Source: Aminobacter sp. AP02 (GTDB lineage Bacteria; Pseudomonadota; Alphaproteobacteria; Rhizobiales; Rhizobiaceae). From it: 64,000 bases of DNA. The stretch is taken from positions 248,001 through 312,000 of the forward strand of contig NZ_QGGX01000005.1 in the NCBI RefSeq assembly GCF_003148805.1, given 5' to 3'. The notes under the pieces are model-generated. The model saw only the letters and a program-made list of their open reading frames with translations. It made no database searches and was not told the DNA's origin. Both the position numbers and the translations under genes were made by a program. Shown piece after piece: positions 25,745-50,215 of the stretch (position 1 is its first letter; every line of letters begins with the position of its first letter).

Positions 25745-26065
25745 AAGTGGAGGTTTCTGTTGCCAGGTACCTCCGAACCCCGCCTAGAAGTGCGAACCTC
25801 TAGGGCTTAATTTGAAGCTATCGCACTGCATTAAGCAGCGAGACGTGCTTCCGCATAGTTGTCGTTTGCAACTACAAGTTTAGCCCGATAACGGTGGTAC
25901 TATGCCGGGCAAAAGTCCGATCTTTACACCCTCGTCGATCCTATTTCGCCCCCATCAAAAACCGTCGCTCAATCGCACGGCAGCTTTTGGTGGAGGCGCC
26001 GGGTACCGCCCCCGGGTCCGAATGGCTTATTTCATCGGCAGTTTATCGCCATAGTCAGACAAGCT
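25745..26065 (-). ncRNA. ssrA: Circularly permuted two-piece tmRNA (ssrA)
   Basis: Transfer-messenger RNA that rescues stalled ribosomes. Read on the minus strand, the acceptor piece comes first and ends GGCGCCTCCACCA (CCA at 25990-25988). A spacer of 34 nt (25987-25954) follows, then the coding piece starting GGGGGCGAAATAGGATCGAC (from 25953). GGGGGCG and CGCCTCC form a 7-bp acceptor stem with a G3-U wobble, the alanine identity element. The tag frame lies at 25869-25831. The coding piece ends near 25745, after ACCTGGCAACAGAAACCTCC. A TATATC -10 box (26080-26075) sets the start near 26065. Outer ends are estimates; identity is very secure. Confidence 0.95.
25831..25869 (-). other. tmRNA tag-peptide reading frame (ANDNYAEARLAA)
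   Basis: Thirteen codons GCA AAC GAC AAC TAT GCG and so on to GCT GCT TAA encode the tag ANDNYAEARLAA, appended to nascent chains on stalled ribosomes. The -LAA end is the ClpX degron and the AND start is the part recognised by alphaproteobacterial SspB. There is no start codon, as expected for tmRNA resume translation. Confidence 0.95.
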
Positions 26066-26290
26066 GACAGCACTGATATAAGGAGGCCGGACGGAAAAGG
26101 AAAGATGCGAACCGCATCTCGCGCCAGCCATCCGCAACAGATTTATGAGACCACGCGAAGACGCAGGGTTGACTCGCGTCGTGCGCGAACCGAAGCTTCG
26201 GCCGCTGGGGTGCCTGCATTGCGCGTGAACCGGTCAAGGCCGGCAGTCCCCAAGGGAGATGACATCAATTCGTCGACGAGGGGAATTCGC

Positions 26291-45590: not shown

Positions 45591-47426
45591 TCAGCTTTGC
45601 GGCGATCGGCCGCCAAATGTCGACGGGCGCAGTCCGAAGCGGGTCTCGAAGTCATCGTCGGGTTGCGGTCTGACAGGCGGCTTGCGGTAATCGCTGTCGC
45701 CGGCCTGGCGCTGGGCGTCAACCACCTCGGCAAATCCAAGCGCGGCAGCTTGTGGCCTGGGCACGTTGCGGAGCCGTTCGACCACGGTTGCCAGATCGAC
45801 ATCGTCGCCATTGCCGATCGTGGCCTCAGCCGCGCGCTTGCCAGTTCCGGGAATGAGTTCGCTCGAAAGCTTCTCGAATTTCAGACGCATGGTGGTGGCG
45901 ACGCCTTCGCCGAAGGCGATGGCTTCGCGCTGGCCCATCGACGACAGGAATGATAGCGTCGAGGCGGAAGAGTCGGCGATCGCCGAGCGGATGATCGCCT
46001 GGTCCTGCTCGTTGGCAAGCCGCATGGCAAAGACAGTGGAGCATTGCGAAAGTATGGTGGGGTCGAGTTCGCCTGGACGCTGGGTGACGACGCCGAGATA
46101 GCAGCCATATTTGCGGCCTTCCTTGGCGATGCGCGACAGCGCGTGCCTGGTCGGTGCGAAACCGAGCCGGTGGTCGGCGGGCATATAGCGGTGGGCCTCT
46201 TCGCAAAGCAAAAGCAGCTTCAGGCGGCCTTCGCTCCACAATGCGAGATCGAAGGCGAGGCGGGCGAGCACCGAACAGACCGAATTGACCACCTCGGAGG
46301 GCATGCCGGCCATCTCGAAGCAGGTGACCGGACGGCCATGGGTCGGCACGCGGAAGATGTTGCCGATGGTCTCGTGAATGGTGTCTTCGATCAGCCTGGA
46401 ATGGAACATGAAGCGGTAGCGCGGATCGGCCAGCGCCGATTCGATGCGGGTGCGCAGCGACTTCAGGATCGGCCGCTCGTTCTTGGATTCGAGCATGCCC
46501 ATGCGTTCGTCGATCTGCTTGATCAGGTCGGCGATTCGGTAGGGTACAGGTGTGTCGGCGGTCAGCGCATCGACACCACGGCGCAGGAAGGCGCCGCCCT
46601 GGGGGCTGCGGTACAGGTTCTTGGCGACCGGGATGAGGTCACGCAGCACGTCGATCTCTTCGGCGTCGGTCTCGCGGCCGCGAAACAGCACCTCGGCGAA
46701 CTCTTCGAGGCGGAAGAGCCAGAATGGCAGGTCGAGCGTATTCGAATCGACCTTGACGCAATGCTCGGGCAGCGAGGCGGCGAACTCGTTGTGCGGGTCC
46801 ATGATCAGCACGCGCAGATCGGGCCGTGCGGCGATCGCCTTGCGCAGCAACAGCGAGACGGCGGTCGACTTGCCGACGCCGGTAGTGCCTACAACGGCGA
46901 AGTGGCGGGCGAGCGTCTCGTCGATGGCGATGCAGGCGTCGATGGTGTCGTCCTGCGACAATTGCCCGATGGTGACGGTGCGGCGGCCGGCGAGGTCGTA
47001 GACCGCCTGGAGGTCGCGGCTGCGGATGCGGTGTGCGACAGCACCGATGTAGGGATAGGCGGTGATGCCTCGATCGAAGACCGGGCGCTTGTCTAGACCA
47101 ACATCTCTGACTTCTCCGATCAGTTCGACATGGACCTCGATGGGGTTGTCGCCCTGGCTGCTCCAGGAACGGTCCGATTTGGCGATCGAATAGACAAGCC
47201 CGATGGTGCGCGTTTCACCGAGATTGATGCAGATCATGCGACCAACGGTCCAGAGGCCGACGACGCCGGAGCTATCGCCCTCGGCGTAGGCGCTGATGAT
47301 GGCACGGGCGCCGTCACATTGCACGACGTTGCCAAGGATACGGGCATCGTCCTGCTTGGGATCGCGCCGCTCCTGCGAGGTGGTCTCGCCACCAGCGGCC
47401 TGACGTTCTACGTACATCGGCTTCAT
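45591..47426 (-). CDS. HerA-like hexameric ATPase (DUF87), no NurA partner seen
   Basis: 611 residues. N-terminal HAS-barrel-like region (GNVVQCDGARAIISAYAE, VGLWTVGRMICINLGETRTI), then a FtsK/HerA ATPase with Walker A VVGTTGVGKSTAVSLLLRKA (G180-T188), IMDPHNEFAASLPEH, Walker B LKLLLLCEEAHRYMPAD (about 404-415) and sensor VVTQRPGELDPTILSQCST. In archaea HerA works with the nuclease NurA in end resection; bacterial HerA proteins also occur in defence pairs. Here neighbours are minE/DUF551 and ilvIH, with no nuclease or effector gene, so a chromosome-maintenance role is more likely. C-terminal 90 residues are polar and unassigned. Confidence 0.88.
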   Translation of the reverse strand: MKPMYVERQAAGGETTSQERRDPKQDDARILGNVVQCDGARAIISAYAEGDSSGVVGLWTVGRMICINLGETRTIGLVYSIAKSDRSWSSQGDNPIEVHVELIGEVRDVGLDKRPVFDRGITAYPYIGAVAHRIRSRDLQAVYDLAGRRTVTIGQLSQDDTIDACIAIDETLARHFAVVGTTGVGKSTAVSLLLRKAIAARPDLRVLIMDPHNEFAASLPEHCVKVDSNTLDLPFWLFRLEEFAEVLFRGRETDAEEIDVLRDLIPVAKNLYRSPQGGAFLRRGVDALTADTPVPYRIADLIKQIDERMGMLESKNERPILKSLRTRIESALADPRYRFMFHSRLIEDTIHETIGNIFRVPTHGRPVTCFEMAGMPSEVVNSVCSVLARLAFDLALWSEGRLKLLLLCEEAHRYMPADHRLGFAPTRHALSRIAKEGRKYGCYLGVVTQRPGELDPTILSQCSTVFAMRLANEQDQAIIRSAIADSSASTLSFLSSMGQREAIAFGEGVATTMRLKFEKLSSELIPGTGKRAAEATIGNGDDVDLATVVERLRNVPRPQAAALGFAEVVDAQRQAGDSDYRKPPVRPQPDDDFETRFGLRPSTFGGRSPQS

Positions 47427-47566: not shown

Positions 47567-47595
47567 TTGACAGTTCGCCTTCTTGCGCATTAACG
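47567..47595 (+). promoter_or_regulatory. Promoter of the ilvIH leader
   Basis: TTGACA (47567-47572), 17-bp spacer, TTAACG (47590-47595). A consensus -35 and acceptable -10. The predicted transcription start, 6-8 bp after the -10, is at about 47601-47603, one to three bases before the leader-peptide ATG at 47604, so the leader would be translated from a leaderless or nearly leaderless message. Confidence 0.65.
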
Positions 47596-47603
47596 TCCGC
47601 GCC

Positions 47604-47657
47604 ATGAATACGACACTCATTCTCGTAGTAGGATTGCGCATGGGCAAGGCGGTGTAA
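47604..47657 (+). CDS. ilvIH leader peptide (attenuation)
   Basis: Seventeen codons read MNTTLILVVGLRMGKAV and TAA. Residues 5-9 are Leu-Ile-Leu-Val-Val (CTC ATT CTC GTA GTA): all three end-product amino acids of the pathway in a row, as in classical ribosome-mediated attenuators. Followed by a pause hairpin and an intrinsic terminator before ilvI. There is no ribosome site, which fits the promoter position and suggests a leaderless start. Translation itself is inferred. Confidence 0.8.
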   Translation: MNTTLILVVGLRMGKAV

Positions 47658-47683
47658 CCGCCGGGCGAAATCCCCCCATGCGC
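47636..47683 (+). promoter_or_regulatory. Pause/anti-antiterminator hairpin of the ilvIH attenuator
   Basis: GCGCATGGG (47636-47644, inside the leader peptide frame just after the Leu-Ile-Leu-Val-Val codons) pairs perfectly with CCCATGCGC (47675-47683). An inner GGCGG/CCGCC hairpin stabilises it. A ribosome stalled at the control codons would cover the left arm. The freed C run 47672-47677 could then pair with the G run 47702-47706 of the terminator, acting as antiterminator. Pairings were done by eye. Confidence 0.65.
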
Positions 47684-47691
47684 AAATGTGA

Positions 47692-47714
47692 AGGCTCCCT
47701 CGGGGGCCTTTTTT
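47692..47714 (+). terminator. Attenuator terminator before ilvI
   Basis: AGGCTCC (47692-47698) pairs with GGGGCCT (47703-47709), one G-U, with a CTCG loop, followed by TTTTT (47710-47714). It lies 68 bp before the ilvI start, so transcription would end here when branched-chain aminoacyl-tRNAs are plentiful. Confidence 0.85.
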
Positions 47715-47781
47715 ATTGCCCGAAACAGGACTAACAGAGCAGCAACCGCCGAGAACGGCGAAGGAAAGACGGGACGGACCG

Positions 47782-49566
47782 ATGAGCGGACATAGTGACA
47801 GCGGACGACGCGAAATGACCGGCGCCGAGATGGTGGTGCAGGCGCTAAAGGACAATGGCGTCAAGCACCTCTTTGGCTATCCCGGCGGCGCCGTCCTTCC
47901 GATCTATGACGAACTGTTCCAGCAGGACGACGTCCAGCACATCCTGGTGCGCCACGAGCAGGGCGCGGGCCACGCGGCCGAAGGCTATGCGCGTTCGACG
48001 GGCAAGGCCGGCGTGATGCTGGTGACGTCGGGCCCGGGTGCGACCAATGCGGTGACGCCGCTGCAGGATGCGCTGATGGATTCGATCCCGCTGGTGTGCA
48101 TCACCGGCCAGGTGCCGACCTCGCTGATCGGGTCCGACGCCTTCCAGGAATGCGACACCGTCGGCATCACGCGGCCTTGCACCAAGCACAACTGGCTGGT
48201 GAAGGACGTCAACGATCTGGCGCGCATCCTGCATGAGGCCTTCCATGTCGCCACCACGGGCCGTCCCGGTCCCGTGGTTGTCGACATCCCCAAGGACGTG
48301 CAGTTCGCCAAGGGCATCTACTCGCCGCCGCAGACCGCGCCGCGCACGTCCTACCAGCCCAAGGTCCAGGGCGACCTCGACAAGGTCAAGGAGGCGGTTG
48401 CGCTGATGGCGGAGGCCAAGCGGCCGATCATCTATTCGGGCGGCGGCGTGGTCAATTCCGGCCCCGAGGCAAGCCATCTGCTGCGCGAACTGGTCGACCT
48501 GACCGGTTTCCCGATTACCTCGACGCTGATGGGCCTGGGTGCGTATCCGGCATCGGGCAAGAACTGGCTCGGCATGCTGGGCATGCATGGCAGCTACGAA
48601 GCGAACATGGCGATGCATGACTGCGACGTCATGATCTGCATCGGCGCGCGCTTCGACGACCGCATCACCGGCCGTCTCAATGCGTTCTCGCCGAACTCCA
48701 AGAAAATCCACATCGACATCGACCCATCGTCGATCAACAAGAACGTGACCGCCGACGTGCCGATCCTGGGCGATGTCGGCCGCGTGCTCGAAGACATGGT
48801 GCGGCTGTGGCGGGCGACCGCCAAGGCCGACAAGAAGGTGCTCTACCCGTGGTGGGAGCAGATCGCCAAGTGGCGCGCGCGCGACAGCTACGCCTACAAG
48901 GCCAACAGCGAAGTGATCATGCCGCAATACGCGATCCAGCGGCTTTACGAGAACACCAAGCACCTCGACACCTACATCACGACAGAGGTCGGCCAGCACC
49001 AGATGTGGGCGGCCCAGCACTACGGTTTCGAAAAGCCGAACCGCTGGATGACCTCTGGTGGCCTCGGTACCATGGGCTACGGCCTGCCGGCGGCACTTGG
49101 CGTGCAGATCGCGCACCCCGACGCGCTGGTCATCGACATCGCTGGCGACGCGTCGGTACAGATGTGTATCCAGGAGATGAGCACGGCGATCCAGTTCGAT
49201 GCGCCGATCAAGGTCTTCATCCTCAACAACTCCTACATGGGCATGGTACGCCAGTGGCAGCAGCTGCTGCACGGCAACCGGCTGTCGCACTCCTACACCG
49301 AGGCGATGCCCGACTTCGTCAAGCTCGCCGAAGCTTATGGCGGCCATGGCATCCGTTGCGACAAGCCCGATGAACTCGATGATGCGATCAAGGAGATGAT
49401 TGCGGTGAAGAAGCCGGTGATTTTCGATTGCCGCGTGGCTACGCTCGCCAATTGCTTCCCGATGATCCCTTCGGGCAAGGCGCATAACGAGATGCTGCTG
49501 CCCGACGAGGCGACCGACGAGGCGGTGGCCAATGCCATCGACGCCAAGGGCCGCGAACTGGTGTGA
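47782..49566 (+). CDS. ilvI: Acetolactate synthase large (catalytic) subunit
   Basis: 594-residue thiamine-diphosphate enzyme forming acetolactate or acetohydroxybutyrate, the first common step of Val/Leu/Ile synthesis. Motifs: FGYPGGAVLPIYDEL, catalytic Glu in VRHEQGAGHAAEGYARSTGK, TSGPGATNAVTPLQDALMDS, and the ThDP motif IAGDASVQMCIQEMSTAIQF followed by NNSYMGMVRQWQQ. The ATG at 47782 is preferred by homology over a TTG 22 codons upstream that lies in the terminator. First structural gene after the attenuator; ilvH follows. Confidence 0.96.
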   Translation: MSGHSDSGRREMTGAEMVVQALKDNGVKHLFGYPGGAVLPIYDELFQQDDVQHILVRHEQGAGHAAEGYARSTGKAGVMLVTSGPGATNAVTPLQDALMDSIPLVCITGQVPTSLIGSDAFQECDTVGITRPCTKHNWLVKDVNDLARILHEAFHVATTGRPGPVVVDIPKDVQFAKGIYSPPQTAPRTSYQPKVQGDLDKVKEAVALMAEAKRPIIYSGGGVVNSGPEASHLLRELVDLTGFPITSTLMGLGAYPASGKNWLGMLGMHGSYEANMAMHDCDVMICIGARFDDRITGRLNAFSPNSKKIHIDIDPSSINKNVTADVPILGDVGRVLEDMVRLWRATAKADKKVLYPWWEQIAKWRARDSYAYKANSEVIMPQYAIQRLYENTKHLDTYITTEVGQHQMWAAQHYGFEKPNRWMTSGGLGTMGYGLPAALGVQIAHPDALVIDIAGDASVQMCIQEMSTAIQFDAPIKVFILNNSYMGMVRQWQQLLHGNRLSHSYTEAMPDFVKLAEAYGGHGIRCDKPDELDDAIKEMIAVKKPVIFDCRVATLANCFPMIPSGKAHNEMLLPDEATDEAVANAIDAKGRELV

Positions 49567-49642
49567 CGGATCGCGTGCGGCCTTCATGCAAGGCCGCACA
49601 ATCAATGAGTTGGCGCAAACGCCTGAGATCGAGATTCATCTT

Positions 49643-50215
49643 ATGAACGCACAGCTACAACCTACCGGCTCCGCCTATTTCATCGCCAAGGAAACCGAAA
49701 AGCCGGAAAACCACACGCTATCGGTGCTCGTCGACAACGAACCGGGCGTGCTTGCCCGCGTCATCGGCCTGTTTTCCGGCCGCGGCTACAACATCGAAAG
49801 CCTGACCGTCTCCGAAACCGAGCATGAAAAGCATTTGTCGCGCATCACCATCGTGACGCGTGGTACGCCGCACGTACTGGAACAGATCAAGCACCAGCTC
49901 GAGCGTATCGTGCCGGTCCATCGTGTCGTCGACCTGACCGTCATGGCGCAGGAACTGGGCACCGGCGGCGCGCTGGCGCGGGAACTCGCCCTGGTGAAAG
50001 TTGCCGGCACCGGCGAGGCCCGCGTCGAGGCGTTGCGCCTGGCCGAAGCCTTCCGTGCCAAAGTGATCGATGCCAACACCGAGCACTTCATCTTCGAACT
50101 GACCGGCAAGGTGTCGAAGATCGAGCAGTTCATCGCCATCATGAAGCCACTCGGCCTGGTCGAGATCTGCCGCACCGGCGTCGCTGCGATGAACCGCGGC
50201 CCCCAGGGGATGTGA
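49643..50215 (+). CDS. ilvH: Acetolactate synthase small (regulatory) subunit
   Basis: 190-residue ACT-domain subunit that activates IlvI and gives valine feedback inhibition. N-terminal ACT: HTLSVLVDNEPGVLARVIGL, FSGRGYNIESLTVSETEHEK, RITIVTRGTPHVLEQIKHQL. C-terminal part: DLTVMAQELGTGGALARELA, VIDANTEHFIFELTGKVSKI and EQFIAIMKPLGLVEICRTGV. The ATG at 49643 matches usual annotation; an in-frame ATG at 49586 would add 19 residues. Spaced 76 bp from ilvI, followed by an intrinsic terminator. Confidence 0.95.
   Translation: MNAQLQPTGSAYFIAKETEKPENHTLSVLVDNEPGVLARVIGLFSGRGYNIESLTVSETEHEKHLSRITIVTRGTPHVLEQIKHQLERIVPVHRVVDLTVMAQELGTGGALARELALVKVAGTGEARVEALRLAEAFRAKVIDANTEHFIFELTGKVSKIEQFIAIMKPLGLVEICRTGVAAMNRGPQGM

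Follow-up and report, generated by a model that had tools for sequence, protein, structure and literature searches.

A probable branched-chain amino acid attenuator with a predicted leaderless start ahead of ilvIH in Aminobacter sp. AP02

The ilvIH genes of Aminobacter sp. AP02 are preceded by an RNA leader that is probably a branched-chain amino acid (BCAA) attenuator, in which a ribosome loading onto a leaderless message would act as the sensor. The leader lies at positions 47567-47714 of the window, by which we mean the whole stretch of DNA that was analysed (64,000 nucleotides; contig NZ_QGGX01000005.1, positions 248,001 to 312,000, of assembly GCF_003148805.1). We propose that a ribosome initiates at the very 5' end of the leader transcript, on its AUG, and that, when charged Val, Leu or Ile tRNA is scarce, it would be held on the codons CTC ATT CTC GTA GTA. 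Because the last of these control codons ends 3-5 nt before a hairpin that we call stem A, the front edge of the stalled ribosome would rest on the base of that stem, and transcription would proceed into ilvIH. With plentiful amino acids, the ribosome would reach the stop codon in a second hairpin, B, and leave; transcription would then end at the terminator T, releasing an Atu_C8-type RNA of about 111 nt. Stem A, rather than a 2:3 hairpin, is taken here as the ribosome-sensing element. The promoter spacing, the frame, its codon choice, stems A and B, the stop codon inside A, the terminator and the linkage to ilvI were all read in the sequence or in its comparison with relatives. From them we infer where transcription starts, that it terminates in the cell and which way the regulation runs.

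The leader, its genes and its relatives

The features of the leader and of the genes that follow it are collected in Table 1. A sequence-only reading of this DNA had described a 17-codon frame, a perfect 9-bp hairpin and a terminator before ilvI, all of which are indeed there. The core of stem A consists of nine perfect pairs between GCGCATGGG (47636-47644) and CCCATGCGC (47675-47683) and can be extended to 11, and 67 nt separate the T run from the ATG of ilvI at 47782. The fold of the window leader has a z-score of -4.2, and none of 200 shuffles was equally stable. A terminated RNA would be predicted to run from 47603 or 47604 to about 47714. The frame listed for ilvH probably begins too early, with the true start further in, as the NF008864 match covers residues 59-226.

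Table 1. Features of the ilvIH leader and downstream genes (window positions)
Feature	Position	Strand	Basis
-35 element TTGACA	47567-47572	+	sequence; 75 of 81 family leaders have exact TTGAC 35-38 nt 5' of the start codon
-10 element TAACGT, 18-base spacer	47591-47596	+	sequence; TANNNT in 47 of 75 leaderless-type family leaders
Predicted transcription start	~47603-47604	+	promoter spacing
Leader frame MNTTLILVVGLRMGKAV plus TAA, 17 sense codons	47604-47657	+	sequence
Leader start codon ATG	47604-47606	+	sequence
Leader stop codon TAA	47655-47657	+	sequence
Control codons CTC ATT CTC GTA GTA	47616-47630	+	sequence, codon bias
Stem A, 5' arm TTGCGCATGGG	47634-47644	+	sequence, covariation
Stem A, 3' arm CCCATGCGCAA	47675-47685	+	sequence, covariation
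Hairpin B GGCGGTGTAACCGCC, contains the stop codon	47648-47662	+	folding
Intrinsic terminator T, stem GAAGGCTCC/GGGGCCTTT, T run 47709-47714	47690-47714	+	terminator prediction
RF02502 Atu_C8 match	47603-47725	+	105.8 bits, alignment
ilvI, acetolactate synthase large subunit	47782-49566	+	NF006581 1212.8 bits (cut-off 974); TIGR00118 802.1 bits (cut-off 538.35)
ilvH, acetolactate synthase small subunit	49532-50215 (frame as listed)	+	NF008864 225 bits (cut-off 119)

The promoter was read somewhat differently before. Its TTGACA element stands, but the -10 hexamer TTAACG at a spacing of 17 gives way to TAACGT behind an 18-base spacer, which fits better in having A at position 2 and T at position 6. 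The transcription start that had been placed 1-3 nt before the ATG accordingly moves closer, and the predicted 5' UTR is 0-1 nt long. An automatic promoter scan that required at least four of six matches per hexamer called neither of the two -10 readings. Elsewhere in the window, the divergent neighbour of the leader (45591-47426, minus strand) is a frame of 611 aa that carries a Walker-A-like motif, GTTGVGKST, and by eye resembles HerA, and an alphaproteobacterial tmRNA lies at 25746-26107 (minus strand; 307.5 bits).

The leader matches the Rfam family RF02502 (Atu_C8, 'Rhizobiales sRNA') over model positions 1-122 of 122, with a score well above the cut-off of 50 bits and an E value of 3.3e-22 over the whole window. 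Two other candidate identities, Phe_leader and ctRNA_p42d, were rejected with matches far under their cut-offs. Among 101 genomes searched, the window's own included, RF02502 was found in 76 at an E value of 0.001 or better and in 62 above the cut-off; it was found in none of 14 control genomes. In the window's family (group f1) the element is present in 59 of 61 genomes. The check for ilvI in genomes without a match covered the two exceptions in f1 (G014 and G053), whose TIGR00118 scores of 274.9 and 20 bits fall below the cut-off of 538.35. Within the order, a model built from 78 leaders detected the element in 287 of 397 genomes; a sample of 289 genomes from across the class gave seven matches, three of which came from members of that order. 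Two of these seven matches (L335 and L336) are likely due to chance, having no ilvI or MFS match downstream. A leader in another family of the class (L334, genome G703) precedes ilvI and reads MNNVVLIVGKQRMGR; it has the same GCGCATGGG stem, and by eye the linker between stem A and the terminator is absent.

For the comparisons below, 154 leaders were collected from 26 groups that we call families, 81 of them from f1. They comprise 78 from the 101-genome search and 76 more from the order-wide search, chosen for genus spread and hence non-random. A short frame rich in BCAA codons occupies the expected site in all 154. In 144 of them a same-strand gene for the acetolactate synthase (ALS) large subunit, at least 69% identical, lies downstream, which bears out the earlier reading of the element as a leader of ilvIH whose control codons are those of branched-chain amino acids. 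In the remaining ten, the gene that follows is an MFS gene. The terminator hairpin and its T run are conserved across the alignment. Aminobacter niigataensis and A. anthyllidis have a leader peptide identical to that of the window and IlvI proteins 95-97% identical to its own.

Several further observations concern single leaders or sites. A similar leader stands before an ALS paralogue, 62-74% identical to the window's IlvI, in genome G038, Rhizobium hidalgonense (L235) and Mesorhizobium carmichaelinearum (L278). Genome G364 (L194) has tandem ilvI genes 2.7 kb apart with leaders at 201 and 2899, both encoding the peptide MRLLLVVLRWRTVAEVSS. The six bases after the T run (47715-47720 in the window) are conserved across the 154 leaders although they would lie outside a terminated RNA; the commonest letters, ATTGCC, occur at 80, 97, 79, 68, 77 and 84%, and by eye these bases could pair with the 3' arm of the terminator.

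Predicted leaderless start, control codons and stem A

In 75 of the 81 f1 leaders, the exact TTGAC that defines the promoter spacing precedes the start codon by 35-38 nt; the distance is 53-60 nt in five (genomes G010, G013, G019, G043 and G048) and 30 nt in one (G015). Of these 75, 47 also have a TANNNT element, resembling a -10 hexamer, that ends 5-9 nt upstream of the start codon. Since the spacers are 17-18 bases long, these distances would place +1 on the AUG or about 2 nt from it. Among 80 named public loci, 78 have the 35-38 nt distance directly, and the two others have it if the next in-frame ATG is used. Judged by promoter spacing, leaderless initiation, which the sequence-only reading had called probable, is implied for the f1 leaders. 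In many members of RF02502 (offset -2), including the Rhizobium skierniewicense locus L010, the Rfam model starts at the G of the AUG, and this would fit RNA reads that begin at the AUG.

Outside f1, the spacing is mixed. TTGAC is found at 35-38 nt in 20 of 73 leaders and at 50-85 nt in 44 (42 of these at 53-68 nt), with nine showing neither; the short distance is that of f23 (7/7), f28 (6/6), f22 (2/2), f16 (1/5) and f6 (4/12, these being the MFS leaders). A Shine-Dalgarno-like match of at least four bases was seen in 40 of these 73 leaders as opposed to 12 of 81 in f1, bearing in mind that matches this short also occur by chance. Mapped onto an IlvI tree with 141 rows, the mode of initiation needs eight changes, compared with an average of 44 for shuffled labels, and strongly supported branches force at least five changes of the leaderless label when unclear rows are counted as not leaderless; the tree was a quick one in which 55 of 138 inner branches are open, and the labels were inferred from the promoters. 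The trp leader of the window genome (MNTTSLQNNWWRAS; L329, G000:C6 near 19545), which stands before a long trpE-type frame, has its ATG 36 nt after TTGCGT and looks leaderless too. This spacing agrees with the leaderless rnTrpL of S. meliloti as described in the accessible part of the published account (PMC7298713).

The choice of codons in the leader frames is strongly biased. GTA accounts for 88 of 158 Val codons in the leaders of 75 f1 loci and for 93 of 126 in those of 69 loci from other families, compared with 2.3% and 1.5%, respectively, in the ilvI genes that these leaders precede; in a set of 26 long frames from the window it makes up 6.7% of the Val codons. ATT (Ile) and CTT (Leu) are enriched in both sets of leaders, and CTC in those of f1. 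As the leader rows are related to one another, the p-values of the codon bias are overstated, and the effect size is independent of them. This is selection at the level of the codon, which would be expected if control were timed by the ribosome. In 128 of 154 leaders, stem A follows the last BCAA codon at a distance of 2-5 nt.

Both stem A and hairpin B show covariation. In 78 leaders, 93.3% of the cells of the two stems are paired compared with 81.9% in shuffles, none of 500 shuffles being as high; 14 of the 18 stem pairs show compensating changes, double-change cells number 167 compared with 47 in the shuffles, and pairing is far lower when the partner is slid by 1-3 columns. The pairs of A and B also head the APC-corrected covariation list obtained from 228 distinct sequences. 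The sequence-only reading had proposed checking relatives for conserved codons and stem, and both are found: the GTA bias is kept in the two sets of leaders, and stem A covaries. Of 153 leaders, 151 have the stop codon within a hairpin inside stem A; the linker from stem A to the terminator is 2-8 nt long in 143 of 154. At alignment columns 44-47, pairs of stem A carry compensating changes in 11-25 of the 78 sequences, and in leaders with such changes the RMG of the window peptide is replaced by RTR, RIA, RAA and others. Because the compensated changes alter the peptide, it is the RNA stem that is conserved and not the residues.

Search for an antiterminator and rival readings

Pairing of the terminator 5' arm with upstream RNA was computed by a fold test at the point just before the 3' arm is synthesized, with the region covered by the ribosome masked at a control codon (stall) or at the stop codon (stop). 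The E. coli thr, trp, his, ilv and leu leaders and the trp leader of the window genome served as controls. They gave values of 0.54-0.87 for stall and 0.01-0.15 for stop, with a stall-minus-stop contrast of +0.45 to +0.86 in all six. For the 154 ilv-type leaders the means were 0.22 for stall and 0.43 for stop, and the classical antiterminator was not seen in this test; the contrast, averaged over control codons, was -0.3 or lower in 53 leaders, with a median of -0.22. The window leader itself gave 0.13 and 0.20. With stricter masks, in which everything 5' of the ribosome was also masked and three footprint sizes were used, the mean stall value was 0.19-0.28, compared with 0.53-0.90 in the controls. 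The contrast of the his leader and of the window genome's own trp leader (and that of leu at the smallest footprint) dropped under +0.3; thus, the absolute stall value is the sturdier measure.

One possible reading of these leaders is a classical three-hairpin attenuator of the trp type, in which stem A would be 1:2, a stall would produce a 2:3 antiterminator and T would be 3:4. The control codons abutting stem A and the stop codon inside it are what a region 1:2 would need, 62 of the 154 leaders have at least one stall position at which the terminator arm is at least half sequestered (0.5 or more), and the best stall position exceeds the stop state by 0.3 in 14-23 leaders. The stall value averaged over positions, however, reaches 0.5 in only four leaders, and a contrast of at least +0.3 was found in one of 154, as opposed to six of six controls, and in three of 154 with the stricter masks, which also push two or three controls out of six below +0.3. 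Among the 45 best covarying pairs (228 sequences), the sole pair involving a terminator arm lies within the terminator, none joining an upstream arm to it, although invariant bases are invisible to such an analysis. We therefore regard the trp-type scheme as unlikely. The further claim of the sequence-only reading, that the ilv leader works in the same way as the trp leader, was not supported, in that an antiterminator of the kind seen in the window genome's own trp leader and the five E. coli leaders was not found. The two other readings make an RNA or a peptide the product. If the element were a free-standing sRNA gene, T would be constitutive, the RNA would act in trans and ilvIH would have another promoter. 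Rfam assigns the family the type 'Gene; sRNA', the terminator is autonomous, and trans functions are described for the related rnTrpL and peTrpL in the part of PMC7298713 that is accessible. We nevertheless consider this quite improbable, given that TTGAC[ACG] occurs in just 5 of 144 leader-to-ilvI gaps, that ilvI follows 144 of 154 leaders, that the two are jointly absent from two family genomes and that the branched-chain codons are so strongly biased. Least probable of all, and by our estimate very improbable, is that the leader peptide is itself the product and acts in trans like peTrpL. The short frame is present in every one of the 154 leaders and peTrpL offers a precedent, but the compensated changes in stem A alter residues while the stem is kept, which speaks against a residue-specific peptide, and the N-terminal residues of the frames vary.

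An attenuator sensed by a ribosome on a leaderless message remains the reading that we prefer. Within the reach of the folding models, which take in neither pseudoknots and tertiary contacts nor kinetics, no conserved secondary-structure antiterminator is visible; we do not claim from this that regulation is absent. On secondary structure alone, termination would be the predicted outcome whatever the state, and because no classical antiterminator pairing was found, the folding gives no route by which the ribosome would act on the terminator (stem A to T). Two candidate pairings were considered by eye and rejected. Pairing of the stem A 3' arm with the terminator 3' arm (CCC:GGG) is not fully formable where the arm is CGTGTGCGC, as in leaders L045, L046, L049 and L051-L055, and an extension of stem A into the terminator by GGA:UCC is not kept in the same leaders. 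Two further analyses carry no weight here. Full-length equilibrium folding with ribosome masks of 78 loci (two with a misplaced terminator) gave mean terminator pairing of 0.92-0.94 in all states, and was dropped because the E. coli controls also keep the terminator at 0.77-1.00 when stalled. Shuffling of the terminator 5' arm in 60 of the 144 ALS leaders gave 0.41 for native and 0.53-0.54 for shuffled arms, which points away from an antiterminator. In the thr, his, ilv and leu controls, 0, 7, 7 and 8 of 60 shuffles were as high as the native arm; in the two trp controls 13 and 40 of 60 were, so that these were not singled out, and the test was given no weight because both trp controls fail to stand out.

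Copies before putative MFS efflux genes and comparison with known systems

The ten leaders that precede an MFS gene come from six f1 genomes (G009b, G246b, G340b, G367b, G442b and G453b), G009 being of the window's genus, and four f6 genomes (G186, G318, G390 and G426). Named cases are Rhizobium aethiopicum, Rhizobium sp. R634 and BK602, Mesorhizobium sp. WSM4311 and a Mesorhizobium MAG; the MFS-leader loci are L203, L199, L198, L201, L202, L144-L147, L032 and L331. They occur in Rhizobium, Mesorhizobium, one genome of the window's genus, f6 and one genome outside the order, with three families noted. All ten MFS frames match two MFS queries at 46-100% identity. Against TIGR00710 (Bcr/CflA efflux; cut-off 200.9), one of the two MFS proteins that were scanned scored 214.8 bits and the other, falling just short, 181.4 bits; the EmrD, Bcr and CmlA/FloR models came next, under their cut-offs. 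The MFS leader frames are rich in Val, with Val, Leu and Ile making up 59, 14 and 27% of these three residues (15 leaders, duplicates included) compared with 38, 33 and 29% in the ALS leader frames. None of 30 family MFS loci at 34-46% identity, among the places listed, has this leader.

The four f6 MFS leaders are of the leaderless type with a Rhizobiaceae-type stem, whereas the ilvI leaders of the same genomes have TTGAC at 59-68 nt and a Shine-Dalgarno-like match. Outside the order, genome G559 (L331) has the same leader-MFS pair, with MRMMQVSVVVGRRMGKAA and an MFS protein 67% identical to the f6 one. This mismatch of leader types and the out-of-order pair make horizontal transfer probable, and the MFS copies are probably mobile. 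They suggest that amino-acid attenuators may be reusable as translation-stress switches for efflux genes. A wider hypothesis, which we hold only tentatively and think rather doubtful as a whole, is that these leaders form a class of attenuator without an antiterminator: the position of the ribosome would determine whether stem A is present, and stem A would alter how RNA polymerase handles the terminator. On this view the leader is a self-contained leaderless cassette that would report slow translation of rare Val codons; it would have been copied to Bcr/CflA-like MFS genes, there to turn the pump on as ribosomes slow (e.g., with ribosome-targeting drugs), and would have moved between families, in one case outside the order.

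The RNA itself is not new, as it is Atu_C8 in Rfam and an alphaproteobacterial ilv leader has already been described. Apparently unreported are the series of leaderless starts, the bias in codon choice, the lack of a visible antiterminator and the copies before MFS genes, the evidence for their novelty being weak: a literature search that took in titles and abstracts, with supplements and most subscription papers outside it, found no paper on a leaderless ilvIH leader, on RF02502 as an attenuator or on an MFS leader. Word searches of PMC10117765 ('ilv' 0 times), PMC2873474, PMC4201532 and PMC3738593 found nothing on the window leader. The comparison ties an sRNA family that had no stated role to a concrete regulatory context. 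It also offers the same attenuator in natural variants with led and with leaderless starts, so that the influence of initiation mode on attenuation could be measured, and raises the question of how a ribosome could control a terminator where no competing hairpin is visible.

Drug-sensing leaders of the cmlA, cat and erm type place a short leader frame ahead of an efflux or resistance gene. The MFS leaders described here differ from them in being copies of an amino-acid-type leader, the two that were scanned scoring 84.3 and 101.8 bits to RF02502. A leader of the Caulobacter ilvIH/ilvBN genes was reportedly described by Tarleton in 1994. In the accessible part of PMC4117421, a Caulobacter leader frame with Ile/Val codons and a terminator is said to attenuate ilvIH, the ALS genes. 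It resembles the window leader in its Ile/Val frame, terminator and ALS genes; the present model is essentially one of the window's order. The tabulation of an 'ilvIH cis regulatory' element for S. meliloti (PMC2573895) and the mention of an alphaproteobacterial ilvB leader peptide (PMC1273637), both seen in parts of these papers, go back to Vitreschak 2004. The ilvB-II motif of Corynebacterium, with the C. glutamicum ilvBNC attenuator, has a BCAA-rich frame of usually 15-17 codons that overlaps a stem and is followed by a terminator (PMC10272879, in the part available). An antiterminator pairing is proposed there, unlike in the window leader, and the likeness noted is one of layout.

RF02502, which the accessible part of PMC5913331 names in a benchmark list, is the same element as the window leader. 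Rfam files it as an sRNA gene, whereas the present comparison ties it to ilvIH and sometimes to MFS genes, with a conserved frame. Finally, rnTrpL/peTrpL of Sinorhizobium is leaderless and has end-product codons, a terminator and a released RNA, the RNA and peptide acting in trans (PMC7298713, as far as the accessible part goes). The ilv leader shares with it the end-product codons, the terminator and, by prediction, the leaderless start and the released RNA; it is not known to act in trans. The two types of leader part at the antiterminator, in that the trp leader of the window genome shows one in the fold test (less so under the stricter masks) and the ilv leader shows none.
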